A stretch of 64,000 nt of DNA from Pseudomonas sp. RC10. GTDB lineage: Bacteria > Pseudomonadota > Gammaproteobacteria > Pseudomonadales > Pseudomonadaceae. The stretch spans positions 2,542,001 through 2,606,000 of the forward strand of contig NZ_CP151650.1 in assembly GCF_038397775.1 (NCBI RefSeq), in the 5' to 3' direction. Positions 24,382 through 39,303 of this stretch are shown here, piece after piece. The notes under the pieces are model-generated. The model was not told where the DNA came from. It worked only from the letters and a program-made list of their open reading frames with translations, and searched no databases. The translations under genes and the position numbers were made by a program. Position 1 is the stretch's first letter, and each line of letters begins with the position of its first letter.

Positions 24382-24909
24382 ATGCACAAACCTCACAAGA
24401 CGCTTCGGCTCGTCGCTGATCATCTCAAACGTGTCGGTGCTTCTAAAGCGTCCAGCCCCTCTCGGGTTTGGGATGAGCTGGAACAGGTGTCAGCGTCGGG
24501 CGACCTGCCTGCCTTCGGCCATCAAGGCTACTGTGATCAGCAAAAACGCTTTGGTGCGGTCCGGCACTACCACGGCCGATTGATTTATGTGGTGTCCGGT
24601 GAGTTGCATGCAGAACTGGCCGCAGAGGTCATACGTGTGAGATCGAAATCTGCGTTTTGGATACCCCCTTTGGTTCGGCATGAACTAAGCGTCAGCGCTG
24701 GAACAAAGTTTTACACGGTGTACGTTCATGTGTTGCTTGTGTCTCACATGCCTCCGAGATGTTGGCGTTTCGGGGCGTCTCGTTTATTGGAGCAGGTCGC
24801 GCACACGCTTTCCAATACGCCGCTGGGTTCCCGCGTGACCAAACAAAATAAGCTGCTCGCTGCGGTGTTGATCGACGAAATCAATAACGGTCGGCTCACC
24901 GGTATCTAG
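24382..24909 (+). CDS. orphan cupin (AraC sensor-like, no HTH), paralogue A
   Basis: 175 aa resembling the ligand-binding cupin half of AraC regulators: FGHQGYCDQQKRFGAVRHYHGRLIYVVSGELHAEL with the HYHGRLIYVVSG cupin motif at ~62-74, then SAFWIPPLVRHEL, and a C-terminal helical stretch (LLEQVAHTLSNTP, then KLLAAVLIDEI). There is no DNA-binding domain after it. It is clearly homologous to the protein at 26728. It lies directly upstream of pcaHG, so it may sense protocatechuate-related ligands, or be an enzyme-like cupin. Start ATG 24382 lacks a strong ribosome binding site. Confidence 0.75.
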   Translation: MHKPHKTLRLVADHLKRVGASKASSPSRVWDELEQVSASGDLPAFGHQGYCDQQKRFGAVRHYHGRLIYVVSGELHAELAAEVIRVRSKSAFWIPPLVRHELSVSAGTKFYTVYVHVLLVSHMPPRCWRFGASRLLEQVAHTLSNTPLGSRVTKQNKLLAAVLIDEINNGRLTGI

Positions 24910-25195: not shown

Positions 25196-25915
25196 ATGTC
25201 TGACGCATCCAACAGTCGTTTCGCCATTCGCGATCGTAATTGGCATCCTAAAGCGCTGAACCCCAACTACAAGACCTCGATCCTGCGCTCGCCGCGCCAG
25301 GCGTTGGTCGGTATCCCTCAATCGGTATCTGAAACCACCGGTCCGGATTTTTCTCACCTGCAAATGGGTCGTCACGACAGTGATCTGCTCCTGAATTTCA
25401 ACAACGGTGGCCTCCCCATCGGCGAGCGCATCATTCTTGCCGGGCGGGTCACTGATCAGTATGGCAAGCCCGTTGCACATACCTTGGTGGAGATGTGGCA
25501 GGCGAATGCGGGCGGACGCTATCGCCACTACAAAGACACCTATTTTGCGCCACTGGACCCGAACTTCGGCGGCGTTGGTCGCTGCCTCACTGACCGAGAC
25601 GGCAACTATATCTTCCGGACCATCAAGCCCGGCCCATATCCCTGGCGAAACGGTCCTAATGACTGGCGCCCGGCGCATATTCATTTTTCCATCAGCGGTC
25701 CGTCGATTTCCGCCAAGCTGATCACCCAGATGTATTTCGAGGGCGACCCGCTGATCCCGATGTGCCCGGTCGTCAAGTCCATCGCTGACCCGGACGCCGT
25801 GCAGAGCCTGATCGCTCGATTCGACCTGAGCATGGCCAATCCAATGGATTGCCTGGCTTACCGCTTTGATATCGTCCTGCGCGGTCAGCGCAAGACTCAC
25901 TTCGAAAACGCTTGA
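25196..25915 (+). CDS. pcaH: protocatechuate 3,4-dioxygenase beta subunit
   Basis: Iron-bearing subunit of the intradiol dioxygenase that opens protocatechuate to 3-carboxy-cis,cis-muconate, the first step of the beta-ketoadipate branch. 239 aa; ATG 25196 with AGGAG 7 nt upstream. The four Fe(III) ligands are visible and one residue offset from the P. putida numbering: Tyr109 (GGRYRHY), Tyr148 (PGPYPW), His161 and His163 (RPAHIHFS). [13 protein letters not shown] is the classic fingerprint. Overlaps nothing; pcaG follows 11 nt later, as one transcript. Confidence 0.97.
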
Positions 25916-25926
25916 GGAAGGCTGTC

Positions 25927-26529
25927 ATGCCCGTTCAACTTCTGCCGGAAACCCCGTCCCAGACCGCTGGTCCTTACGTGCACATTGGCCTCGCACTGGA
26001 AGCCGCAGGTAACCCGGCCCGAGAGCAGGAAATCTGGAATGAAATGGCCAAACCCGGCGCCCCCGGCGAACACATCCTGCTGCTTGGACACGTCTATGAC
26101 GGCAACGGCCACCTGATTCGCGATTCGTTTCTGGAGTTTTGGCAGGCCAATGCCGACGGCGAGTACGACACCGACTACGACCTCAATAAGTCCTTTAACA
26201 GCTTTGGCCGCAGTGCCACGGCTGACGAGGGCGAATGGGTGATCAAGACCGTCAAACCAGGCGTAGTACGCAACGCTGCGGGTGTCCCGATGGCGCCTCA
26301 CGTCAACGTGTCGCTCTTTGCCCGGGGCATCAACATTCATTTACAGACACGCCTCTATTTCAACGATGAAGCTCAAAGCAATGCGGTTGACCCCGTACTG
26401 AACCTGATTGAGCAACCTGCTCGCAGGCAAACGCTGGTGGCCCAACGTTGCATGGTGGAGGGCAACGTTGCCTATCGTTTCGACATCCGGGTGCAGGGCG
26501 CAGACGAAACCGTCTTCTTCGACTTTTGA
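25927..26529 (+). CDS. pcaG: protocatechuate 3,4-dioxygenase alpha subunit
   Basis: Non-catalytic partner of PcaH, 200 aa, that forms half of the substrate pocket. ATG 25927 with AGGAAGG 5 nt upstream is preferred to the TTG at 25912. Visible: LLPETPSQTAGPYVHIGL, ILLLGHVYDGNGHLIRDSFLEFWQANADGEY, and PHVNVSLFARGINIHLQTRLYF. As expected, the iron-liganding Tyr/His set is not complete here. No pcaBDC, pcaIJ or pcaQ gene is adjacent, so the rest of the pathway must be elsewhere in the genome. Confidence 0.97.
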   Translation: MPVQLLPETPSQTAGPYVHIGLALEAAGNPAREQEIWNEMAKPGAPGEHILLLGHVYDGNGHLIRDSFLEFWQANADGEYDTDYDLNKSFNSFGRSATADEGEWVIKTVKPGVVRNAAGVPMAPHVNVSLFARGINIHLQTRLYFNDEAQSNAVDPVLNLIEQPARRQTLVAQRCMVEGNVAYRFDIRVQGADETVFFDF

Positions 26530-26727: not shown

Positions 26728-27252
26728 ATGAGCGAAAAGTATCAGGCCTTGAGGCTTGTCATTAATAACGGCCAGTCCCCAAGCGCGCCGAGTAGCCCGT
26801 TGTGGAATCGCATGGAAGATATGTCTACTGCTGGGCATTTACCGGCGTTTGGGCATCAGTACTATTGCGATGACCCTAAACGTTTCGCAAAAACCCGGCA
26901 TTACCACGGCCGGCTCATTTATGTCCTCTCCGGCGAGCTGAACGTTGATTTGAACGTCGAGTCGTTATGTGTGGAAGCAAAGTCAGCCATATGGATTCCC
27001 GCTTGGCTGTCTCATGGGCTCCGCGTCAGTGAGAAGACCATGTTCAATGCTGTCTATGTGCATACGCTACTCATGGATTACCTGCCCGTTTCGGCCCGCA
27101 GGTTTGGGGCATCTCCCTTGCTCGAACAGATCACAAACGCATTGGCAGAGGTTCCGATGGGGGCAAAGATCACAAAACGTTCACGGCTCCTGGCCGCCGT
27201 CATGATCGATGAAATACATGCGTCAGAGATAACGGTGGGCGAGTCCGTTTAG
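26728..27252 (+). CDS. orphan cupin (AraC sensor-like, no HTH), paralogue B
   Basis: 174 aa, homologous over most of its length to the cupin at 24382: FGHQYYCDDPKRFAKTRHYHGRLIYVLSGEL, SAIWIPAWLSHGL, RFGASPLLEQITNALAEVPMG, and LLAAVMIDEI. Again the AraC-type HTH is absent. It lies between pcaG and a LysR gene. The pair brackets pcaHG, which suggests a local duplication with the dioxygenase genes in the middle, or capture of pcaHG into an existing tandem. Function unknown. Confidence 0.8.
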   Translation: MSEKYQALRLVINNGQSPSAPSSPLWNRMEDMSTAGHLPAFGHQYYCDDPKRFAKTRHYHGRLIYVLSGELNVDLNVESLCVEAKSAIWIPAWLSHGLRVSEKTMFNAVYVHTLLMDYLPVSARRFGASPLLEQITNALAEVPMGAKITKRSRLLAAVMIDEIHASEITVGESV

Positions 27253-27408: not shown

Positions 27409-28344
27409 GTGAAAAGCCTGATGAAACTGCACCCGTTGCCCCCTCTCAATAGCCTTGTCGCGTTTGAGGCCTCCGCGCGGCACCTGAGCTTCACCCTTGC
27501 TGCCCGTGAACTGAATGTCACCCAGGGAGCGGTAAGCCGCCAGATTCGTCTGCTTGAGGAGTATCTCGGTAAGCCGCTTTTTAGCCGCACGACCCGGGAG
27601 ATCGTGCTGACGACGACAGGGCGGGACTATTGTGAGGTCGTGCGCGAGTCGCTTCAAAAGGTTGCGCATGCGACCGCAGGTGTTCGTCACTGGCAGGGGA
27701 CCGAACAGGTCACCGTTGTCACCAGTACCGCCATGGCGTCACTCTGGTTGCTGCCGAGAGTGTCTGTTTTCAAGAACCTGAACGACGAAATCGACTTGCG
27801 CATCATTGCGACCGACGCCATGCACGAGTTCTCCCGGCTTGACTGTGATCTGGCCCTCTATTACTGCCGCTCTCAGCCCAGCAATGCCAAGGTTACCCCG
27901 TTGTTTGCCGAAGAGATCTTTCCTGTCTGCAGCCCTGCTTACCTGGCTCGTCATCCCCAGTTGGCCAATCCGCAGCAGCTTGGAGAAGCCACCTGGTTAT
28001 GGCTGGAGGATCCTCAGAGTGACTGGATTGGATGGCACGAGTGGTTTCACAAGAGTGGCCTAAAGGCGACTGAACCTCGCAACCGGATCAACATCAACAG
28101 TTACTCGATGCTGATCCAGTCGGCTTTGGCTGGCCAGGGCGTGGCACTGGCATGGTCCAACCTTGTGGATGATCATTTGTCGAACGGCACACTGGTGCGC
28201 CCCGTTGACATGGTGCTGCGTACCGATGCTCGTTTCTGTCTGTTGGAACCGGCTGGACGCTCCGCCAATCGCCAGAGCGTCAACCGTTTCAGGCAGTGGC
28301 TGCTTACCCAGATCAGCGATTCTCAACTAGCCGCTGTCAGCTAG
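27409..28344 (+). CDS. LysR-type regulator (GcvA-like)
   Basis: 311 aa. The N-terminus LPPLNSLVAFEASARHLSFTLAARELNVTQGAVSRQIRLLEEYLGKPLFSRTTREI is the wHTH of the GcvA/AmpR subgroup; then QVTVVTSTAMASLWLLPR, DLALYYC, and a C-terminal lobe with LIQSALAGQGVALAW. Start may be GTG 27409 or ATG 27421; neither has an obvious ribosome site. It follows the cupin gene on the same strand by 156 nt. It could regulate pcaHG or the divergent-facing betaine-type locus downstream; the sequence does not say which. Confidence 0.9.
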   Translation: MKSLMKLHPLPPLNSLVAFEASARHLSFTLAARELNVTQGAVSRQIRLLEEYLGKPLFSRTTREIVLTTTGRDYCEVVRESLQKVAHATAGVRHWQGTEQVTVVTSTAMASLWLLPRVSVFKNLNDEIDLRIIATDAMHEFSRLDCDLALYYCRSQPSNAKVTPLFAEEIFPVCSPAYLARHPQLANPQQLGEATWLWLEDPQSDWIGWHEWFHKSGLKATEPRNRININSYSMLIQSALAGQGVALAWSNLVDDHLSNGTLVRPVDMVLRTDARFCLLEPAGRSANRQSVNRFRQWLLTQISDSQLAAVS

Positions 28345-28703
28345 GGCAGAAGTTCAGCCGCAGCGGATTCGATGACGAGCATCACGCACCCCGAAGGGGA
28401 GTGGAGGTGGTGCTCCGAGTCCGACGTATAGACCAGGCTTGAGCCTGCCTTGAAGCAACACCCATCGCTGTCCTGAACCTCCCCCTCCCAGATGACAATC
28501 AGCTCCTCGCCTGTGTGGCGATGGGGCGGCGACTGGCTTCCGGGTGCCATCTTCATCCAGTATCCATGCCAGGTGTGAGCGTTCGCCAACTCGGCATATT
28601 CCAATCCTGGCAGCGGCATGTCCCCTATGATCAGCGGCTGCCAGACCAGGCTGGACAGGTCAGCCTGGTCTCGATCACTCGAAAGGGGAAACCTGGAGCT
28701 CAC
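28341..28703 (-). CDS. cupin-domain protein (ChrR-like), coupled to the BCCT gene
   Basis: A single-domain cupin of 120 aa with motif 1 PPHRHTGEELIVIWEGEVQD (His-X-His, Glu) at ~60-80 and motif 2 HHLHSPSGCVMLVI at ~97-110. A metal is therefore likely. Its ATG overlaps the stop of the BCCT transporter gene by 4 nt (ATGA), so the two are co-expressed. The family includes ChrR-like sensors and small metabolic isomerase-like cupins; a role linked to the transporter's substrate is inferred from coupling alone. Converges with the LysR gene, stops overlapping by 4 nt. Confidence 0.85.
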   Translation of the reverse strand: MSSRFPLSSDRDQADLSSLVWQPLIIGDMPLPGLEYAELANAHTWHGYWMKMAPGSQSPPHRHTGEELIVIWEGEVQDSDGCCFKAGSSLVYTSDSEHHLHSPSGCVMLVIESAAAELLP

Positions 28704-30367
28704 GCCATTTCCCGGTGGGTGGGTTGAGTCAACAGCTGCCCGGTTTCAGGTCGAAGCGATACGTCGTTGATCGCGGGTCGCATCATCAGGGTCTGGACCG
28801 GCCAAACCGTATCCTCTCGTAAGCTACGCAACAGGCTGTAGGCCGTCACGAGCAAGAAGAGGGCGATGGGAAGCCCGATCACGATGCTCGCCAATTGAAT
28901 GGCCGCCAGGCCCCCAGCTAACAAAAGACCGCCAGCAATCGCCCCTTCAAGGAAACACCAAAGGACGCGTATCCAGTTAGGCGGGTTGATGCTGCCCACC
29001 GAATTGAGCATACACAGCACTTGAGTGCCCGCATCTGCCGTCGTCACAAAGTGCACGGCCAGAAGAAGACAAACCAGCACACACAACAGCCCACCTATCG
29101 TCGGCCCGTCAAGGCGCTCAAGCAGCGTGAACATGGCTGACGTTGTTTCTTTCTGCGTGGCTTGCAGAATGACACCGCCTTGAAACGGCGCGGTTGCGTT
29201 GTCCTGTGAGCTGACCTGCTGAGCACTGGCGATACGGGCGTTCTGCTCATCCTTCAGCGCAGAGCCACCGAACACTGACATCCACAGGATGGTGACCAGT
29301 GTGGGTACCAGCAGCGCGCCAATGATCAGTTCCCGGATTGTGCGGCCGCGGGAAATGCGCGCAATGAACAGTCCTACGAACGGGCCCCAGGTCATCCACC
29401 ACGGCCAGTAGAAGGCCGTCCAGCTTTTTTGCCAGGACGAGTTAGACTGTGTATCCGTCCAGAAGCTCAAGCCGACCAAATGCTGGAGATAGTCGCCAGT
29501 AGATTCGAACAGGAAATTCATGACATAGCGGGTTGGGCCCAGTGCCAGAACCACCAGCATCAAACCGAACGACATCCACATGTTCAAGATCGACAAGCGC
29601 TTCATCCCTCGCGAAACACCCGCCACGAGAGACACTGCGGCGATGAGGCTCACCAGCGCGATGATGCCCAGTTGCAGGCCCATGCTGACGGGAATTTGAA
29701 ACACCTGATTGAGGCCGGTGTTGATTTGTACCACGCCCAACCCCAGCGATTGAGACACGCCAAACGCCGTGATGCAGACCCCCATGATGTCCACTGCGTG
29801 TCCAATCGGCCCGTAGATGCGCTGACCGATCAGGGGGTAAAGAACCGAGCGAAGCGCCAGTGGCAGGCCTTTGCAGTAGGCGAAATAAGCAAGCCCGAGC
29901 CCAATGGTCGTGAAGATAGCCCACGGATGCAGGCCCCAATGGAACAGCGTCAGACGCATGGCCGTGGTGGCGGACTCATCCGTCAGCCCTTTGCTAAACG
30001 GGTTTGACGAGTAGTGCAGCACGGGTTCGGCCACGGACCAGAAGATCAGGCCGATCCCCATCCCTGCACTGAAGAGCATCGAGATCCAGGCAGGGAAGCT
30101 GAATTCGGGTTTGTCCCCTTCACGCCCGAGCTTGAGCGTGCCGTAGCGGCTGACAGCGATGAGGATCAATGCGCCCAACAGGCCGCTTACTAACGCAAGA
30201 TAAAACCATTTGAAGTTGTCGAGGATTGCATCCGATGCAATTTTGAAAGCGTGAGCGGCCTGATCTCCAAGCGTCGCGCACAGCACGACGAACGCAAGAA
30301 CAATAGCCACGGAAACGATCGTTACGGTTGGATTGAGGCCTTTGAACAGGCCACTTTTGGCACGCAT
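28700..30367 (-). CDS. BCCT-family (betaine/carnitine/choline) transporter
   Basis: 555 aa with ~12 predicted membrane helices. Family signature around residues 300-340: WTAFYWPWWMTWGPFVGLFIARISRGRTIRELI; also FSAGMGIGLIFWSVAEPVLHYSSNPF, where the Gly-Met-Gly-Ile-Gly sodium-site motif of sodium-coupled members is visible (AGMGIGLIFW). So it imports a quaternary ammonium solute, probably with sodium. The C-terminal tail is short, unlike the osmosensing BetP type, which fits a catabolic rather than an osmotic role. It is divergent from the Rieske operon across a 297-bp space, so transporter and enzymes probably share control and substrate. Confidence 0.95.
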   Translation of the reverse strand: MRAKSGLFKGLNPTVTIVSVAIVLAFVVLCATLGDQAAHAFKIASDAILDNFKWFYLALVSGLLGALILIAVSRYGTLKLGREGDKPEFSFPAWISMLFSAGMGIGLIFWSVAEPVLHYSSNPFSKGLTDESATTAMRLTLFHWGLHPWAIFTTIGLGLAYFAYCKGLPLALRSVLYPLIGQRIYGPIGHAVDIMGVCITAFGVSQSLGLGVVQINTGLNQVFQIPVSMGLQLGIIALVSLIAAVSLVAGVSRGMKRLSILNMWMSFGLMLVVLALGPTRYVMNFLFESTGDYLQHLVGLSFWTDTQSNSSWQKSWTAFYWPWWMTWGPFVGLFIARISRGRTIRELIIGALLVPTLVTILWMSVFGGSALKDEQNARIASAQQVSSQDNATAPFQGGVILQATQKETTSAMFTLLERLDGPTIGGLLCVLVCLLLAVHFVTTADAGTQVLCMLNSVGSINPPNWIRVLWCFLEGAIAGGLLLAGGLAAIQLASIVIGLPIALFLLVTAYSLLRSLREDTVWPVQTLMMRPAINDVSLRPETGQLLTQPTHREMA

Positions 30368-30538
30368 TGGGATTCTCCCCTTTTTGTTTTAGTACGCCAT
30401 CGTATGACGCCGATACGCGACTGGGATTGATAGCGCCGCCAATTTGCGCGAGGCCGAAGCGCTCAACAAACTATTTAAACTCATCGACTTATGAGATTTA
30501 CGCATGCGAGAAAAAGGCAGATAAGACGAAAAATAATA

Positions 30539-30555
30539 AATGAGAATTTCTCATT
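30539..30555. promoter_or_regulatory. 17-bp palindrome in the BCCT/Rieske intergenic region
   Basis: AATGAGAA-T-TTCTCATT is a perfect inverted repeat with a 1-nt centre. A second, related repeat CTCAT-N6-ATGAG lies at 30479-30494. The two share the ATGAG core, lie 44 nt apart and between divergent genes, as expected for the operators of one repressor or activator. The cognate regulator was not identified. Confidence 0.5.
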
Positions 30556-30664
30556 AATAGCGTTGAAAAAATCGTTTGTGACGCGGGGCGTGAAATCGAA
30601 AGAATCCGCCGGGCCAAGGCCTGACCCTGACGGCCTCGAACAAGCGATTTTGGAGATAACAATA

Positions 30665-31846
30665 ATGGGCACCGCGAATCTCATCCCCGTGCAAAGTCTG
30701 GAAACCGTGCTTTCTCCTATCGAGCAAGCTCATGGTTTGACCAACCCTTTCTATACCGATCAACGTTACTTCGAGCTTGATCGTGACCGTGTGCTGGGCC
30801 GCAACTGGGCATGCATCGGCTTTGCATCCGACCTGCCGAGGAACGCCTACGTGAAGCCGGTTGATTTCATGGGCCTGCCTTTGCTCATGATGCGTAACCG
30901 CGAAGGGACCGTTCAGGTCTTCCACAACGTGTGCAGTCACCGCGGGGTTAAGTTGGTGCAGGCTGCAGGCGAAGTGCAGGGCGTTATCCGATGCCCGTAC
31001 CACTCCTGGACGTACGACCTGAACGGCGCTCTGCGAGGCACCCCGCATGTGGGGGGTATCAACCAGCACAAAGATGACCGCTTCGCTTGCGAGAAGCACG
31101 GCCTGAAGGCACTGCGCAGCGAAATCTGGATGGACATGGTCTTCGTCAACCTGTCGGGTGATGCCCCGGATTTGCAGGAGTCCCTGGCGCCGCTGACAGA
31201 GCGCTGGGCTCAGTTCCTGGGTGCTGACGGGATGGGGCTGATGCGCCGCGAATCGAACAGCGGCGCCATGGCCATCGAGGTCAAGTGCAACTGGAAACTG
31301 GCAGTGGAGAACTACTGTGAGGCGTACCATCTGCCGTGGGTCCATCCGAGCCTGAACACGTATTCTCGCCTCGAAGACCACTACAACATCATGTTTGATC
31401 AGTTCGCCGGACAAGGCAGCTATGCCTACAACCTGTCCGATGTTGCGGGCACCCATCTTCCGACATTCCCGTCGTGGCCTGCGGATCGCATGCGCAACGC
31501 TGAGTACGTGGCGTTCTTCCCCAACGTCTTGCTGGGCATCCAGGCCGACCACGCGTTTGCCATGATGCTGGAACCTATCGAGCCAGGAAAAACCGTTGAG
31601 CATCTGCGCCTGTTCTACGTCGGCGATCAAGCGCTCGATGCGAAATACGAAGCTGCCCGCAAGGCGGTCATGGACTCGTGGCGTGTGGTGTTTGCTGAAG
31701 ACATTGCTTCGGTAGAAGGCATGCAGATGGGGCGCAGCTCGCCAGGTTACAACGGCGGCGCTTTCTCCCCTGAAATGGATCTTCCAACCCATTACTTTCA
31801 CAAGTGGACGGCTCGGCAACTGCTCGATACCGCCCAGCAAGGTTGA
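30665..31846 (+). CDS. Rieske non-heme iron oxygenase, quaternary-ammonium type
   Basis: 393 aa from ATG 30665 (GGAG 9 nt upstream). Rieske centre Cys90-X-His92 and Cys110-X2-His113 (CSHRG, CPYHSW); mononuclear iron set in NWKLAVENYCEAYHLPWVH (His222, His227) and Asp346 (AEDIASVEGMQMG). The bridging residue, Asp in classic ring hydroxylases, is Glu219 here; Glu at this place is a known mark of carnitine oxygenase CntA and is also found in glycine-betaine oxygenases. With the divergent BCCT carrier this points to C-N bond oxidation of a betaine-like substrate. Related names, such as GbcA or stachydrine demethylase, are not safe to apply. No ferredoxin-reductase (GbcB/CntB) gene is adjacent. 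Confidence 0.9.
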   Translation: MGTANLIPVQSLETVLSPIEQAHGLTNPFYTDQRYFELDRDRVLGRNWACIGFASDLPRNAYVKPVDFMGLPLLMMRNREGTVQVFHNVCSHRGVKLVQAAGEVQGVIRCPYHSWTYDLNGALRGTPHVGGINQHKDDRFACEKHGLKALRSEIWMDMVFVNLSGDAPDLQESLAPLTERWAQFLGADGMGLMRRESNSGAMAIEVKCNWKLAVENYCEAYHLPWVHPSLNTYSRLEDHYNIMFDQFAGQGSYAYNLSDVAGTHLPTFPSWPADRMRNAEYVAFFPNVLLGIQADHAFAMMLEPIEPGKTVEHLRLFYVGDQALDAKYEAARKAVMDSWRVVFAEDIASVEGMQMGRSSPGYNGGAFSPEMDLPTHYFHKWTARQLLDTAQQG

Positions 31847-31860
31847 GCCAGGAGAACATC

Positions 31861-33300
31861 ATGAATTCCAGACACTGGCTTAATTACATTGATGGGCAAT
31901 GGGTCGACAGCGAGCAACGATTGACCATCCTTGCACCTGCGACCAACCAACCTGTTGCGACCATCGCCCAAGCCAGCGAGGGTGATGCCGAACGAGCCCT
32001 CAATGCTGCTCGCCGCTGTGCCGACAGCGGCGAGCTCACCCATGCGCGTCCGGCGCATCGCGTGACGTGGTTGCTCAGAATTGCGGAAGAGATCCGCGCC
32101 ATCGCCGATGAAGGTGCTCGTATCCTGTGCGCGGAAAATGGCAAGACGCTGCGCGATGCAAAAGGCGAGTTCGATGAAGCGGCCCGCTATTTCGAATATT
32201 ACGCGGGCATGGCCGACAAGATCGAAGGCACGTCGATCCCGTTGGGCAACGGGTACATGGACTTCACTCTGTACGACCCAATGGGCGTCTCGCTGCAGAT
32301 CGTGCCGTGGAATTTTCCTGTCTCGATTTGTGCGCGTTCATTGGCTCCGGCACTCGCCGCCGGCAACGCCGTGATCGTCAAATCCCCGGAGCTTTCGCCG
32401 CTCGGGCTGTGCGTGTTGGTAGAAGCCATCGAACGTGCGGGCACGCCACCAGGGGCCGTGAATCTCCTGTGTGGACGTGGTCGAGAAGTCGGGGCGTACA
32501 TGGCGTCCAGTAACAAAGTCGATCAGATCGTGTTCACAGGATCGGTACCCACAGGCCAAACCATCCTGCGATCGGCCGCCGAGAACGCCGTGCCGTGCGT
32601 GATGGAGTTGGGGGGCAAGTCAGCGGCGTTGGTGTTCCCGGATGCTGATCGTGAGCAGATCCTGACCAGCGTTCGCGATGGCATTTTCTTCAACGCCGGG
32701 CAGGTCTGCTCGGCTATGTCGCGAATCCTCATCCATCGCTCGATCTACGATGAAATCGTGAATTCGATCGTTGAAATGGTGGACGGCTTCAGCATCGGTG
32801 CCGGGGAAGAGAACCCTGTCATCACTCCCGTGATCTCTGCGGGGCAGCTCACCGGGATCGACGTGCTTTGCCACTCGGCTCAGGAGGAGGGCGCAGTGGT
32901 CGCCACTGGAGGCGAGCGCCTGTCAGGCATGGCAGGGAACTTCATGGCGCCCACCGTTTTTCGGGACGTTACTCCCGAGATGAGCATCGCTCAAATTGAG
33001 GTGTTCGGCCCTGTGCTGGCAGCCATTGCTTTTGACACGGAAGAAGAAGCCATCGCCATTGCCAACGGCACAGAGTTCGGCCTGGTGGCAGGCGTCTTCA
33101 CTCAGGATCTCAACCGAGCCTTGCGTTGTTCGCGGCGTCTGCGTGCTGGCCAGGTCTTCGTGAACGAGTGGTACGCCGGCGGGATCGAGACGCCTTTTGG
33201 GGGCGTTGGGCTTTCCGGTTACGGACGCGAAAAAGGGCAAGAAGCGTTGTACAGCTACGTGCGCACCAAGAACCTCGCTATTCGCATCAAGGGGGAGTGA
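31861..33300 (+). CDS. NAD(P)-dependent aldehyde dehydrogenase
   Basis: 479 aa from ATG 31861, AGGAG 6 nt upstream, 14 nt after the Rieske stop. Catalytic set visible: Asn151 (VPWNFP), Lys174 ([10 protein letters not shown]), Glu249 (MELGGKS) and Cys283 (FNAGQVCSA). It is close to the betaine-aldehyde and succinate-semialdehyde dehydrogenase group. Rieske enzymes that cut a C-N bond release an aldehyde, formaldehyde on demethylation or malic semialdehyde from carnitine; this gene would oxidise it. The C-terminal end overlaps the next start by 1 nt, so the operon is tightly packed. Confidence 0.94.
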
Positions 33301-34694
33301 TGAGCGTCGCACTGAAAAAGTGGCTCTGCATCGTGTGTGGATGGATCTACGACGAAGCACTGGGCTGGCCGGACGATGGGATCGCCCCCGGTACGCGCTG
33401 GGAGGACATCCCGGATGATTGGCTGTGCCCTGAATGCAAAGTCGGGAAAGCTGATTTTGAGATGATCGAAATCAGCGAGGCGGTCATAGCGGTCGCTCAA
33501 ACGCCACCCCTCAAAACCCCGGAAACGTTCCTCCCACCTGCGCAACCCGTCGTCATCATTGGCAGCGGCTATGCCGGTTATGGCTTGGCCCAGGCACTTC
33601 GCAAAGCCGATCCAGCCATTGAAATCAGGGTTCTGACTCAAGAGGACGGGCACAATTACTCCAAGCCGGCCCTCTCTATCGCCCTTGCGCAAGGGCGTGC
33701 GCCCTCATCGCTGGCCACGGAAAGTCCGATGGCCATCGAAGAGCGGTTGGGCATACGTGTCTACCCGCACTGTCGTGTTGAGCGTATCGATACGGATGCC
33801 CGCCGACTGTTCACCAACCTGGGTGAAATGGTTTACGGGCAACTCATTCTGGCCAGTGGCGCGTCGCCGGTGAGGGTGCCGGTCGAAGGCGCGAGTGAGG
33901 CCCTGATCAGCGTCAACAACCTGCATGACTACCATGGGTTTCGGGCGCGTCTTGTCGGGGTGAAGCGAGTCGCTATTTTAGGAGACGGGCTTATCGGTTG
34001 TGAGTTCGCCAACGACCTGGCTGCCAGCGGATATGAAGTCCAGGTGATCGGATTGGGCGCTTGGCCAATGGAGCGCTTGCTGCCCAGGCCGGTCGGCATC
34101 CAGCTTCAGGACGTTCTGTCCAACTTGGGTGTTCGGTGGCACTTGGGGACGACACTGCAACGTGTCGAGCCCCGTGCATCCGGTTTCGAGCTGACCCTCG
34201 CCAATGGCGAAAACCTTGAAGCGGACATCGTGTTGTCAGCTATCGGCCTGCGCCCGAATCTGGAGCTCGCTCGTGCGGCAGGAATCAAATGCGACAGAGG
34301 CATCCTGACCGACGCCTACCTGCAAACGTCCCAGCCGGGCGTGTATGCGTTGGGCGATTGCATTGAAGTCGACGGGCAGTTGCTGCCGTACCTCGCTCCG
34401 ATCAATCAAGGTATCCAGGCGCTCGTGAAGACAATCACAGGCGCCCCGACAACCGTGAGTTACCCCTTGATGCCCGTCATGGTGAAAACGCCCGCTGCGC
34501 CGCTCAGCCTGCTGATTCCACCTCCAGGGACTGCGGGCCAATGGCGATGTGATGCAACCGAGGATGGGTTGAGTGCGGCGTTTCACGATGAGGCGGGGGC
34601 CGTACGAGGGTTCGTCCTCCTGGGGCGTCAGGCGCAGGGGCACCGATCCACTTGGCTGCAACGTTGCCAAGACACACAACAGAGCGTGGCTTGA
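33300..34694 (+). CDS. rubredoxin-FAD/NAD(P) reductase fusion
   Basis: 464 aa. Residues 1-55 are a complete rubredoxin, with iron ligands Cys10, Cys13, Cys43 and Cys46 ([40 protein letters not shown]). After a Pro-rich linker (~60-82) comes a pyridine-nucleotide disulfide-family FAD reductase: [17 protein letters not shown] for [21 protein letters not shown] for NAD(P), and [11 protein letters not shown]. So one chain can pass electrons from NAD(P)H by FAD to a rubredoxin iron. In this operon it is the obvious electron donor for the Rieske oxygenase, replacing the usual 2Fe-2S reductase. ATG at 33300 overlaps the ALDH stop by 1 nt; longer upstream starts would lie inside that gene. Confidence 0.93.
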
Positions 34695-34704
34695 GGGCCG
34701 ACAA

Positions 34705-36033
34705 ATGAACAGTATTGTCAAACTGCCGTACGACGACAGCACCTGCGGTTGGTACGAAGCCTTGCCTCCACCGGCTGCGAGCCATCGCCTCCAGGGCCAA
34801 CAATCCGCAGATCATGTTGTCATCGGTGCAGGCTTCGCAGGGCTCAGCGCGGCACGGCGGTTAGCCGAACATCTGCCTGACGCACGGATCCTGTTGGTGG
34901 ATGCTCAGCGTGTGGGCTATGGCGCGTCCGGGCGCAACTCCGGTTTCGTGATCGACCTGCCTCATAAATTCGCGCTGGAACATCCGGACCCCCAGCATAA
35001 ACAACGGCTGCTCGGTCTTAACCGCTCTGCAATCGCCCAGCTTGAGTCTTTGATCAATCAGCACGGGATTCAGTGCCAGTGGTCCCATGCCGGAAAGTAT
35101 CAAGGCGCGGTAGGTGACCGGGGCTTGGCTTACCTTGATCACTTTCAGGGTTTGCTCGACAACCTGGGCGAAACCTACAGCGTGGTGGAACGCCGGGAGC
35201 TTGCTTCAGTACTGGGGACCGAGCACTACAGCCGAGCGATCTTCACACCGGGCTGCTACCTCATGCAGCCTGCCGCCCTGGTTCGTGGCCTTAGAGATTC
35301 GCTTCCGGCAAACGTCGAGGTGCTTGAGGAGTCACCGATCAGAGGGCTTGAGCGTGACGCTTCCGGTCTGTGGGTTCTGAACGGTGATAACGGAGCGATT
35401 CGGACGCCAAGCGTTCTGTTGAGCACAAGCATTTTCACCCAAGAGTTTGGGTACCTGCGTAACCGGTTGTTGCCCGTCATGACATTTGCCAGCTGGACGC
35501 GACCGTTGACCGATGAGGAAATGGCCTCTGTGGGTATCCAGCCGGACTGGGGCCTGACGCCCGCCGATCATGCAGGTACCACGGTGCGCATGACTCAAGA
35601 CCGGCGATTGATCATCCGCAACACGTACAAACATGTGCCTCGGTACGGGCGCAGCGTGAGCGGGGGCACGCGGGACAAGATTCGTGAAGACCACCGCAAG
35701 GCGTTCCTTGACCGTTACCCGACATTGTCGCGTGTCCCGTTCACCCATACGTGGGGAGGCACCTACGCGATCTCTCGAAACTTCACGAACTTTTTCGGCA
35801 AAGTGAACGAGGGGGTTCACGTCACCGCCTGCGACAACGGCGTAGGTGCAGCATGGGGAACCGTGTCTGGCCGATTGCTCGCAGACAAGGTGCTGGGCGC
35901 CGACTCCCAGCAGCTCCAGGACATTCAGGCCGTTACCGGAATGCCGTCGCTGAACCCTCCCGAGCCGTTTCTGGGGATGGGGGTGCGGACGCGCATTCGC
36001 TGGGCCGCCTGGAACAGCAGGAGTGAGTTGTGA
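34705..36033 (+). CDS. FAD-dependent amine/amino-acid oxidoreductase (DAO family)
   Basis: 442 aa from ATG 34705, GAGGG upstream, 10 nt after the reductase gene. Rossmann FAD motif VIGAGFAGLSAARRLAEH at ~35-53, then the VGYGASGRNSGFVIDLPHK motif of the glycine-oxidase/PuuB-type D-amino-acid-oxidase family and a C-terminal FAD contact THTWGGTYAIS and ACDNGVGAAWGTVSGRLLADKV. Such enzymes oxidise secondary or tertiary amines, for example demethylating N-methyl amino acids. It could act after the Rieske step on a partly demethylated amine. It overlaps the cupin start by 4 nt. The exact substrate is open. Confidence 0.9.
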   Translation: MNSIVKLPYDDSTCGWYEALPPPAASHRLQGQQSADHVVIGAGFAGLSAARRLAEHLPDARILLVDAQRVGYGASGRNSGFVIDLPHKFALEHPDPQHKQRLLGLNRSAIAQLESLINQHGIQCQWSHAGKYQGAVGDRGLAYLDHFQGLLDNLGETYSVVERRELASVLGTEHYSRAIFTPGCYLMQPAALVRGLRDSLPANVEVLEESPIRGLERDASGLWVLNGDNGAIRTPSVLLSTSIFTQEFGYLRNRLLPVMTFASWTRPLTDEEMASVGIQPDWGLTPADHAGTTVRMTQDRRLIIRNTYKHVPRYGRSVSGGTRDKIREDHRKAFLDRYPTLSRVPFTHTWGGTYAISRNFTNFFGKVNEGVHVTACDNGVGAAWGTVSGRLLADKVLGADSQQLQDIQAVTGMPSLNPPEPFLGMGVRTRIRWAAWNSRSEL

Positions 36034-36404
36034 CCAGCCAACGCTGTACCGGCAAGGGCCCGGTCGTTCTGGTCGACCACCGTGACCTGACGTTTAGTCA
36101 TCGCGGTGGCCCACCGGGAGGTGCCAGCGTCGCACGGGCTCTCACTGACGAGGTCTCACCGAACATGGGGGTTGGCTTCGCGCGGTGGGAGGGCGCAGAG
36201 GTGTCGTGGACACTTTTGTACGACGAAGTCATCTTTGTGATTGAAGGCCGTTTCGAGCTGTCCGCTAACGGAGTGGCGTACTCAGTCGAGCCGGGTCAGG
36301 TGCTCTGGATTCCGGATGGCACCGAGGTGACCTACGCAGGTCATGCGTTGTTCGGTTACGTGGTGTATCCCGGGAACTGGAAAGAGCGGCAGCTCGGAAA
36401 GTAG
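36030..36404 (+). CDS. cupin-domain protein (EutQ-like fold) ending the Rieske operon
   Basis: 124 aa starting with GTG 36030, overlapping the previous stop by 4 nt (GTGA). A single cupin barrel: VGFARWEGAEVSWTLLYDEVIFVIEGRFELSANGVAYSVEPGQVLWIPDGTEVTY. The motif resembles ethanolamine-utilisation EutQ cupins. The classical metal-binding His pair in motif 1 is not evident, so metal binding is unsure. Its place as the last gene of a catabolic operon suggests substrate handling or sensing. It is not similar to the cupin at 28341 in its active-site motif. Confidence 0.85.
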   Translation: MTSQRCTGKGPVVLVDHRDLTFSHRGGPPGGASVARALTDEVSPNMGVGFARWEGAEVSWTLLYDEVIFVIEGRFELSANGVAYSVEPGQVLWIPDGTEVTYAGHALFGYVVYPGNWKERQLGK

Positions 36405-36925: not shown

Positions 36926-37086
36926 GTGCAGCTTGTTCTCTTTAGCCCCATCACGTTTGAACGCTTGGCCCTGAACAGAGCCGAGTGCGCTTCTGTGCAG
37001 GGTGCATAGGGAAACTGCCGAAATCCTGAAGTGCTGGCCTAAGGGACCAGCGCCATTCGTTGCTGCCTACTCGAAAGAAATTGATC

Positions 37087-39303
37087 ATGAACCGTACCCC
37101 CATTCGCAGGCCTCTGCGCCCGCTTCCTTGTGCCTTTTACCTGACGGCAATCTGCGCGCCAGGGCTTGCCTTGGCTTCAAATGCCCACGTAGAAAATGGG
37201 TCCGAGCTGACTCCGCTCACCCAGGCGAGAGAAGAACAAACCACGCCCCCCCATGCTCCAGCGGCGCCGAACTCGGCCTTGGCGTCCCGGACGGTCGATC
37301 TCCCAAGTACCACCGTGTCGGACACGTCCATCTCGGGCTATATCACTCCGACGTCAACCAACACCACCCGAACCGATACCCCTCTCAAGGAGTATCCGGC
37401 CTCCATTCAGGTCGTGCCCAATGAGCTGCTGAAGGACCGGGGCGTCACCCGCATCGACCAAGTGGCTGAAACCGTCAGCGGCGTGCATGCCGAGGCGAAC
37501 TACGGCGGGAACGGCGCCACCTTCTTCAACATCCGGGGCTTTAGTGAAAGCAACGGCCTGCGCGATGGCTTTCGTAACTACGGCTATTACGCATTCCGCG
37601 ACGTGCAGAACATCGATCAAGTCGAAATATTCAAAGGCCCCGCGGGTGCGTTGTACGGGGGGATCGGTGCGATTGGTGGCTACCTTAACACCGTCTCGAA
37701 AAGACCTGAGTGGAATGATTTTGGTGAGGTGAGCGGCACGGTAGGTAGCCACGACTTGGCGCGATCCACCCTGGACGTGAACCGCGTGTTGAACGAAGAC
37801 CTGAGCGTGCGTCTCAATGCGTCCGCCGAACATGATTCGACTTTCCGAGACGACACCCGCGACCACTCATGGTCCTTCGCGCCCGCGATCACTTGGGACA
37901 ATCACGAAGGCACGTCTTTGACGCTGCTGAGTGAGTACAACCACCTCAACCGAGACGGATTCGACTTCGGCGTGCCGGCAGTGGCCAACTACCGCGAATT
38001 GTCCAAAACCCGATATTACGGACTCAGCAGCAAAGCGTACGCGGGCATTGATGGCGACTACGGGAAGAACGATACCCTCTCTGAAACCCTGCTGTTCGAG
38101 CACTCACTATCTGACAACTGGAAGCTGCGGCTGGCAGGCCAATATGCTTATGCACGGCAGCGTTCGACCCAGTCATTCCCTAACAGCACCGCGACTGTGG
38201 GTAATCTGCTCGACTACTCCGTTTACAGCGATGCGGATGAGTCTTCTCGACAGTTCGGGACGCGTGCGGAGCTGGTGGGGGAGGTTTTTACAGGCGACAT
38301 CAAACACCAGTTGCTGATCGGTACTGACTACAGCGTCCAGAAAATTTCAAGCGCTGGCTCACAGATCTCCACGATGACGTTGGATCTGAGCAATCCGGAT
38401 TACCTTTCAGGTTTGACACCCGCCGGTTCGCTGGATGGCCACGAATCGCAAGGGAAGGATTACGGTGCGTATGTACAAGACCTTATCGAGCTGACACCGA
38501 CCCTTAAACTCCAGGCCGCGTTACGTGCCGACCGATTCGTCAACCGCGCCAAGGCGTCAGGTGGTGACTCAGCCCAGGGACAGCAATCGACGCTGTCTCC
38601 GCGTTTGGGCATCGTTTGGCAGGCCACTGACAGCACGTCGTACTTCGCGGATTGGAGCCTCAGCCATTCACCGAATGTCGGTCACAGCGGCAGTAACGTC
38701 ACCTATGAGGCTGAGGTTGCGGAGCAGTTTGAGGTGGGGCTCAAGCACGAGCTGATCAAAGACCGGCTCGACGCCAATCTGGCGGTGTTCAGTCTTGATC
38801 GTAACCATATCTTGACCACGGATCCGGATGATCCGTTGCTCCAAGTGCTGACGGGAAAACAGCGAAGTCAGGGCGTAGAGCTGGACATCACGGGCAACAT
38901 CAATCCCCAGTGGAAGACGGCTGCGAGTTACACCTACACCGTCGCGAAGGTGCGCAGCGATAGCAACTACCCAACAGGGGATGTCTTGAGCAATGCGCCT
39001 CGTCACAGTGCCAGCCTATGGACGGCCTACCAACTGAAGTCAGTGGAAGGCCTGCAGATCGGCGGCGGTGTTTACTATGAGGGCTCGCGCGAGGCAACGC
39101 TGCCTAACACCTTCAAACTCTCCAGTTACGTTCGAACAGATGCGATGGCCTCCTACAAGGTCGGCGCATGGACGACGCAAATGAACGTCTTCAACGTGTT
39201 CGACCGCAGGTACTACACCGGAGGTACTGCTGCGACGTTTGACTACACGCTGATGCCAAGTCCGCCAAGAACGATTCAGCTTTCTGAGACCTATCGGTTC
39301 TGA
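37087..39303 (+). CDS. TonB-dependent siderophore/metal receptor
   Basis: 738 aa from ATG 37087. Signal peptide to about ALAS, a TonB-box-like region (STTVSDTSISG), then the plug: PLKEYPASIQVVPNELLKDRGVTRIDQVAETVSGVH, FFNIRGFSESNGLRDGF, VEIFKGPAGALYGGIGAIGGYLNTVSKRP. The 22-strand barrel ends SPPRTIQLSETYRF with a terminal Phe. The plug motifs are those of ferric-siderophore receptors, but the preceding His/Met-rich DUF2946 gene is typical of copper-associated receptors such as OprC, so the metal is open. I see no Fur box upstream. Transcript probably ends at the hairpin at 39638. Confidence 0.94.
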   Translation: MNRTPIRRPLRPLPCAFYLTAICAPGLALASNAHVENGSELTPLTQAREEQTTPPHAPAAPNSALASRTVDLPSTTVSDTSISGYITPTSTNTTRTDTPLKEYPASIQVVPNELLKDRGVTRIDQVAETVSGVHAEANYGGNGATFFNIRGFSESNGLRDGFRNYGYYAFRDVQNIDQVEIFKGPAGALYGGIGAIGGYLNTVSKRPEWNDFGEVSGTVGSHDLARSTLDVNRVLNEDLSVRLNASAEHDSTFRDDTRDHSWSFAPAITWDNHEGTSLTLLSEYNHLNRDGFDFGVPAVANYRELSKTRYYGLSSKAYAGIDGDYGKNDTLSETLLFEHSLSDNWKLRLAGQYAYARQRSTQSFPNSTATVGNLLDYSVYSDADESSRQFGTRAELVGEVFTGDIKHQLLIGTDYSVQKISSAGSQISTMTLDLSNPDYLSGLTPAGSLDGHESQGKDYGAYVQDLIELTPTLKLQAALRADRFVNRAKASGGDSAQGQQSTLSPRLGIVWQATDSTSYFADWSLSHSPNVGHSGSNVTYEAEVAEQFEVGLKHELIKDRLDANLAVFSLDRNHILTTDPDDPLLQVLTGKQRSQGVELDITGNINPQWKTAASYTYTVAKVRSDSNYPTGDVLSNAPRHSASLWTAYQLKSVEGLQIGGGVYYEGSREATLPNTFKLSSYVRTDAMASYKVGAWTTQMNVFNVFDRRYYTGGTAATFDYTLMPSPPRTIQLSETYRF

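Follow-up and report, generated by a model that had tools for sequence, protein, structure and literature searches.

We analysed a window of 64,000 nucleotides (bases 2542001-2606000) from the one-contig, 6.7 Mb genome of Pseudomonas sp. RC10, in which the gene for a Rieske oxygenase alpha subunit (here called ROX) is closely followed by that for a fusion of rubredoxin and rubredoxin reductase (RdxR). ROX, with 393 residues and both its Rieske and its iron ligands, lies on the plus strand at window positions 30665..31846; its frame is open from 30491, and the ATG at 30665 is suggested as the start because homologues have about 390-405 residues. It is followed on the same strand by a BADH-like aldehyde dehydrogenase (ALDH; 31861..33300, PF00171), RdxR (464 residues; 33300..34694), an FAD-dependent amine/amino-acid oxidoreductase of the DAO family (34705..36033, PF01266) and an EutQ-like cupin (cupin 2; 36030..36404, PF06249), the successive junctions being a gap of 14 nt, an overlap of 1 nt, a gap of 10 nt and an overlap of 4 nt. 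Divergent from ROX on the minus strand is a BCCT-family carrier (28700..30367; PF02028, 579.8 bits), which overlaps by 4 nt with a small cupin gene on the same strand (cupin 1; 28341..28703, PF12973/PF07883). Cupin 1 abuts, end facing end, the gene of a LysR-type regulator on the plus strand (27409..28344, PF00126 and PF03466). The original prediction, made from the letters of this stretch, had named the genes at 28341-36404 and their tight spacing, both of which are borne out, and had missed the LysR gene. It had also held the rubredoxin fusion to be the only electron carrier at the locus, and this is correct for Fer2-type reductases, as the genome has 14 Fer2 (PF00111) matches, all of which lie outside the window.

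RdxR is composed of a rubredoxin domain (about residues 7-53), an FAD/NAD(P)H reductase domain (about 84-360) and a C-terminal rubredoxin-binding domain (about 386-455), all three of which (PF00301, PF07992 and PF18113) score above the Pfam cut-offs. In the PDB it matched rubredoxin reductase 2v3a with 300.4 bits and rubredoxin 2 (2v3b_B) with 88.5 bits, which we take to be the rubredoxin-NAD(+) reductase/rubredoxin pair of P. aeruginosa. The domains of that pair are identical in kind to those of RdxR, which differs in carrying them within one chain and in being tied to a Rieske oxygenase.

In ROX, the Rieske ligands C90, H92, C110 and H113 (Cys-X-His ... Cys-X2-His) are invariant among 40 homologues, as are the iron ligands H222 and H227 and the bridging E219, assigned by alignment to CntA; D346 is likely to be the third iron ligand. 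The aromatic Y217 is kept in at least 90% of these homologues, and Y217 and E219 align with Y203 and E205 of CntA. PMC7948474 gives an aromatic residue at CntA position 203 for group Va and Asn for group Vb, to which GbcA and Stc2 belong and from which ROX differs by its Tyr. There are also differences from CntA, as its Cys206/Cys209 pair is replaced by A220/L223 and its Tyr225 by the invariant His239, so that the pocket of ROX differs from that of CntA. The Cys pair is called “unique to some Group V” members in PMC10952381; it is therefore not a defining feature, and its absence does not exclude ROX from group Va. Fold comparison placed CntA nearest, tied with Stc2 (within 1 Z), and the GbcA equivalog model was missed by far (133.8 bits, cut-off 670); the strain possesses two GbcA-like enzymes besides ROX. 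The best reading of these residues and scores is that ROX is a CntA-like (group Va), alpha-only oxygenase, for which oxidation of a quaternary amine is predicted. The label “betaine-type”, which the locus had been given at the outset, is backed by the Tyr217/Glu219 signature, by similarity of fold and by the presence of a BCCT carrier rather than by a known substrate.

The link between ROX and rubredoxin is conserved far beyond this strain. A scan of GTDB species genomes yielded at least 585 matches, of which the best 80 loci (ROX 55-89% identical) were compared; four pairs of entries are the same sequence fetched twice (L070/L085, L072/L093, L073/L094 and L081/L086). At least 6 kb of downstream sequence was available for 70 loci; 68 of these have a same-strand rubredoxin domain within 6 kb downstream of ROX, the two others being L066 and L081. 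Over all 80 loci there are 73 full fusions, two cases of rubredoxin only, one fusion cut by a contig end and four loci without a match, two of which (L030 and L076) end too early. Among the same 70 loci, 67 have ALDH no more than 400 nt downstream of ROX, 58 have DAO within 6 kb and 57 have cupin 2 within 8 kb. On the upstream side, the 73 loci with at least 4 kb of sequence include 64 with a LysR homologue within 5 kb and 41 with a divergent BCCT gene within 3 kb of ROX, and of the 55 loci whose sequence extends 9 kb or more to both sides, 48 contain a BCCT homologue somewhere. Among the matches listed, cupin 1 is near the cluster in L011 and L018 only. The ROX tree, for which the strain's own GbcA-like proteins served as the only outgroups and the short L091 was omitted, comprises sequences from Pseudomonadaceae, Burkholderiaceae, Zoogloeaceae, Halomonadaceae, Moraxellaceae, Aeromonadaceae, Vibrionaceae, Pseudoalteromonadaceae, Colwelliaceae and Oceanospirillaceae. 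Linkage of rubredoxin to ROX spans the first seven of these families and others, and the arrangement is widespread in gamma- and betaproteobacteria.

Three loci with reduced gene content are informative in this respect. In L083, ROX is directly followed by a rubredoxin of 56 residues, with no match to ALDH or DAO; L054 has the order ROX-ALDH-rubredoxin-DAO with a rubredoxin that lacks the reductase domain; and in L067, ROX and RdxR are present but neither ALDH nor DAO. Together these identify rubredoxin as the constant partner of ROX. The fusions themselves form a lineage of their own, as 76 ROX-linked fusions fall into one clade (support 100/100) apart from 11 unlinked fusions or reductases, which were hand-chosen from a longer match list, together with the strain's own, and do not represent all matches. 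The pattern used to compare rubredoxin domains itself demands four Cys, so that Cys conservation was tested separately; all four are retained in each of the 76 loci (of 80) whose match covers them.

Within the genus, 249 Pseudomonas genomes were searched at E<=1e-100 for ROX and E<=1e-130 for RdxR, thresholds chosen because housekeeping rubredoxin reductases score about 1e-120 or weaker and had to be kept out. The same 19 genomes hold ROX and a close fusion, always on one contig and within about 3 kb of each other, and the other 230 hold neither at these thresholds; in one of the 19 (G528) the ROX match is partial (residues 202-391). Had the rubredoxin gene mostly occurred without the oxygenase in relatives, the proposed pairing would have been in doubt, but as far as Pseudomonas and the close fusion are concerned, the outcome was the favourable one (19/19 vs 0/230). 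ROX and the fusion are neighbours and are co-inherited, so this count demonstrates linkage and not many independent events, and conservation across families is the weightier evidence. The patchy occurrence in 19 of 249 genomes fits an accessory catabolic island.

The sequences themselves show which genes and domains are present, which ligands are conserved, that ROX and the fusion are linked and co-inherited, and that some loci have rubredoxin alone; co-transcription, electron flow, the class of substrate and the order of steps we infer. We favour, with good though not full confidence, a catabolic operon for a compound of the quaternary-ammonium type in which ROX is fed by the RdxR of the same operon. 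The substrate would be taken up by the BCCT carrier and hydroxylated by ROX at the carbon adjoining the nitrogen to give an aldehyde; ALDH would oxidise the aldehyde so released, and the DAO enzyme the leftover amine. Electrons would pass from NAD(P)H to the FAD of RdxR, from there to the tethered Fe(Cys)4 rubredoxin, then to the Rieske [2Fe-2S] cluster of ROX and, via Glu219, to the mononuclear iron in the adjacent subunit. A Rieske oxygenase fed through rubredoxin had already been proposed in the original prediction; that idea has gained from the conserved neighbourhood, the 19 of 19 genomes and the two loci that keep rubredoxin alone, although the GbcB-type reductases that the strain encodes elsewhere may also be donors.

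The locus is set apart from the two-component systems CntAB and GbcAB by having no flavin/[2Fe-2S] reductase, the place of which is taken by the rubredoxin fusion, and from CntA/CntB also by different downstream enzymes. In aromatic dioxygenases of Rhodococcus there is a beta subunit, and the rubredoxin is a protein of its own. The present system differs from them in that the reductase is fused, the oxygenase belongs to the quaternary-amine branch and there is no beta subunit, no gene for which was found next to ROX among the Pfam-scanned neighbour genes. Rieske oxygenases paired with rubredoxin are described for aromatic dioxygenases of Rhodococcus, acting on naphthalene (Rub1) and, in strain TKN14, on o-xylene (PMC5209329 and PMC9361823). 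PMC5209329 ties a rubredoxin to naphthalene dioxygenase, PMC9361823 counts rubredoxin among the components of some three-component Rieske systems, and PMC4988695 mentions it only with alkane/alkene monooxygenases. The earlier statement that the pairing is not known from described members can consequently hold for the quaternary-amine branch only. Among the matches listed from the open-licence literature, none reports such a pairing for a quaternary-amine Rieske enzyme, and none reports one in which the reductase is fused. The pairing of Rieske oxygenase and rubredoxin as such is known; what looks new is that the oxygenase is of the quaternary-amine type and its donor a fusion.

A number of observations weigh against the proposed electron route. 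Rubredoxins are usually less negative in potential than the Rieske clusters of oxygenases, so the step from rubredoxin to the Rieske cluster may be slightly uphill. No residue signature was found that splits 79 linked from 19 unlinked rubredoxin domains. Two related loci have no rubredoxin in the cluster: L066 (60-61% ROX) has ROX alone, and L084 (63% ROX) has a ROX-ALDH-DAO-cupin cluster. As the BCCT gene of L084 (8651-10135) is also damaged, missing an internal stretch, this may be a decaying cluster; in the ROX tree it is sister to a fusion-bearing locus, and a separate rubredoxin elsewhere in that genome could possibly serve its ROX. The 80 loci are nearest relatives and no random sample, so that samples of the order and the phylum provide a fairer test. 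Twelve of 293 genomes of the order have ROX (E<=1e-60); the fusion adjoins it in four (G000, G278, G198 and G131, the last cut by a contig end), is not adjacent in seven (G019, G241, G047, G010, G208, G159 and G280), and in the twelfth (G228) the contig ends within ROX. On the supporting side, in G278, G198 and G131 the ROX-linked rubredoxin is the sole rubredoxin match of the genome. Some rubredoxin is held by 11 of the 12 genomes with ROX (G228 not being among the matches listed) and by 211 of the 281 others; at a base rate of 222/293 in the order, the figure of 11/12 says little. In the phylum sample of 398 genomes, ROX was found in 22 (E<=1e-80); 20 of these were newly fetched, and the fusion is present in a single one, G704. 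The remaining 19 (ROX homologue 41-52% identical) belong to a different class, which we infer to be the Alphaproteobacteria; nearly all are nearer to the Phaeobacter homologue described below and none has the fusion. In 17 of these 19 there is no rubredoxin match in the genome at all, and most of the distant ROX homologues sampled have no linked rubredoxin. The link between ROX and rubredoxin thus belongs to the gamma/beta branch, and rubredoxin is not required by the ROX family as a whole.

These data bear on an alternative in which a flavin-[2Fe-2S] reductase of the GbcB/CntB type, encoded elsewhere, supplies ROX in trans, while the fusion has a different role, for instance accepting electrons from the DAO step or protecting from oxygen species. 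Candidate donors exist, as the 14 Fer2 proteins of Pseudomonas sp. RC10 include GbcB-type reductases and two GbcA/GbcB-like pairs are encoded elsewhere in the genome; a GbcB/CntB homologue, the search for which had been suggested from the start, is accordingly present in the strain and absent from the window. The rubredoxin-free genomes of the other class point in the same direction, as do divergent VanB-type reductases beside the ROX homologues of L122 and L126, both from these genomes, and of Phaeobacter L114. In L089, corresponding to G208, a GbcB-like gene (384-1490, 42% identical) follows same-strand ROX at a distance of about 3 kb. Related oxygenases can evidently use such reductases, which shows that the ROX-family fold can also be served by a partner other than rubredoxin. 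However, no rubredoxin motif was found in the stretches of L114, L122 and L126, the pattern expected of alternative partners, and a reductase of the GbcB/VanB type is near ROX in just 2 of the 80 loci. One of these (L016) has both partners, but its VanB-type gene adjoins a second Rieske open reading frame, judged by eye to be its VanA-type partner; in the other (L062), the GbcB-like gene is about 9 kb off on the opposite strand. The ROX-rubredoxin pairs that have no DAO or ALDH (L083 and L067) and the co-occurrence in 19/19 vs 0/230 genomes also speak against this alternative. We thus regard a donor in trans as unlikely and prefer RdxR as the electron source.

On plasmid pPGA1_262 of Phaeobacter inhibens (L114, 6910-14393), a ROX homologue with 48% identity shares its cluster with ALDH, a long oxidoreductase that depends on FAD and the VanB-type reductase. 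The order LysR-ROX-ALDH is the same as in Pseudomonas sp. RC10, and the difference lies in the divergent PDR/VanB reductase in a stretch free of the rubredoxin motif; the redox partner has likely been swapped within one oxygenase family. L089, where a ROX homologue of 56% identity has no linked rubredoxin, is possibly another such swap.

As to the substrate, the BCCT carrier, the group Va signature and the ALDH directly behind ROX suggest a quaternary amine from which cleavage or oxidation yields an aldehyde. The carrier passes TIGR00842 (bcct) and stays below the cut-offs for glycine betaine (538.2/650 bits), choline (BetT, 447.4/695) and carnitine (228/541); ALDH misses the BADH equivalog TIGR01804 (407.1 bits, cut-off 668.6). 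For DAO, none of the curated NCBIfam models reached its cut-off, the best named family being pipecolate oxidase AmaA (123.8/600 bits, far below); a single-sequence search of the PDB gave no match, and the one match of a profile search was to glycine oxidase 7cyx, over a short stretch. The name gamma-glutamylputrescine oxidoreductase, which some DAO relatives bear, comes solely from source annotation.

A bolder version of our proposal, which we put forward as tentative and on balance improbable, is that a Va oxygenase lineage traded its flavin/[2Fe-2S] reductase for an NAD(P)H-FAD-Fe(Cys)4 fusion and now constitutes an undescribed class using a trimethylammonium amino compound, for example trimethyl-lysine. 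The specific route from N6-trimethyl-lysine is somewhat more doubtful still: ROX would release trimethylamine and 2-aminoadipate semialdehyde, ALDH would form 2-aminoadipate and DAO 2-oxoadipate, which would then pass to HglS (2-oxoadipate dioxygenase/decarboxylase). The weak resemblance of DAO to AmaA would suit this route, and L011 and L018 carry an HglS gene after the cluster (700.5 and 680.1 bits, cut-off 550) in addition to another copy elsewhere in each genome. However, HglS accompanies just 2 of the 80 loci, its model finds none in the genome of the window and in three of the other seven tested, and the neighbours elsewhere are different, with a DddP-like M24 protein in 18 of 80 loci and in Phaeobacter an FAD enzyme called DMGDH-like from its length and start. 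It is equally doubtful that the locus encodes a choline or carnitine route of known type with an unusual redox partner, as might be read from the label “choline monooxygenase” on ROX homologues in some databases, the BCCT carrier with a BADH-like ALDH and CntA as nearest fold (tied with Stc2), because the GbcA, BADH and BCCT substrate cut-offs are all missed and the pocket is altered at Tyr225 (His239) and at the Cys pair (Ala220/Leu223).

An attempt to read the substrate from the neighbouring genes was abandoned, as HglS, the DddP-like M24 protein, an MFS carrier (seen where the BCCT is missing, in L011, L018 and L037) and the DMGDH-like enzyme conflict with one another; since they disagree, no substrate is claimed. 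An M24 protein near the DMSP lyase DddP (413.9/600 bits) is found past the cluster in L013 (17133-18434), beside MFS and BCCT carriers.

ROX clusters also occur on plasmids, which are typed as conjugative in Pseudomonas sp. MPC6, mobilizable in Cupriavidus pauculus and non-mobilizable in Oceanisphaera sp. IT1-181. All three have ALDH, a nearly full-length fusion (54-68% identical), DAO and cupin 2; in the MPC6 plasmid, the rubredoxin part of the fusion precedes the annotated start. Ahead of the ROX cluster, the MPC6 plasmid (L115, 1-5613) carries a DUF3726 gene truncated where the locus begins, a protein of 573 residues, a second ALDH and an M19 dipeptidase, a gene content that we read as an enlarged catabolic island. 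The locus thus points to an uncharacterised catabolic route, plasmid-borne too, for a nutrient of the quaternary-amine type.

Redox partners are part of the basis on which Rieske oxygenases are classed. Should a CntA-like enzyme indeed be driven by a one-iron rubredoxin, this enzyme class gains a further electron route, and the apparent natural swaps (the rubredoxin fusion in gamma- and betaproteobacteria, a VanB-type reductase in Phaeobacter and two further genomes) open a direct way to test the surface used for docking as well as the gap in potential.

Two neighbouring regions of the window deserve brief mention. Beyond the 3' end of the cluster, a small open reading frame precedes the gene of a TonB-dependent receptor (37060-39303), which is probably unrelated to the cluster. 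Closely upstream lies pcaHG, encoding the beta and alpha subunits of protocatechuate 3,4-dioxygenase (25196-26529; both above NCBIfam cut-offs), flanked by two similar frames of about 175 residues (24382-24909 and 26728-27252). Only the second of these has a weak cupin match, below the cut-off. By eye both resemble the sensor halves of AraC-type proteins, being too short to include a DNA-binding domain, and they are possibly truncated regulators.

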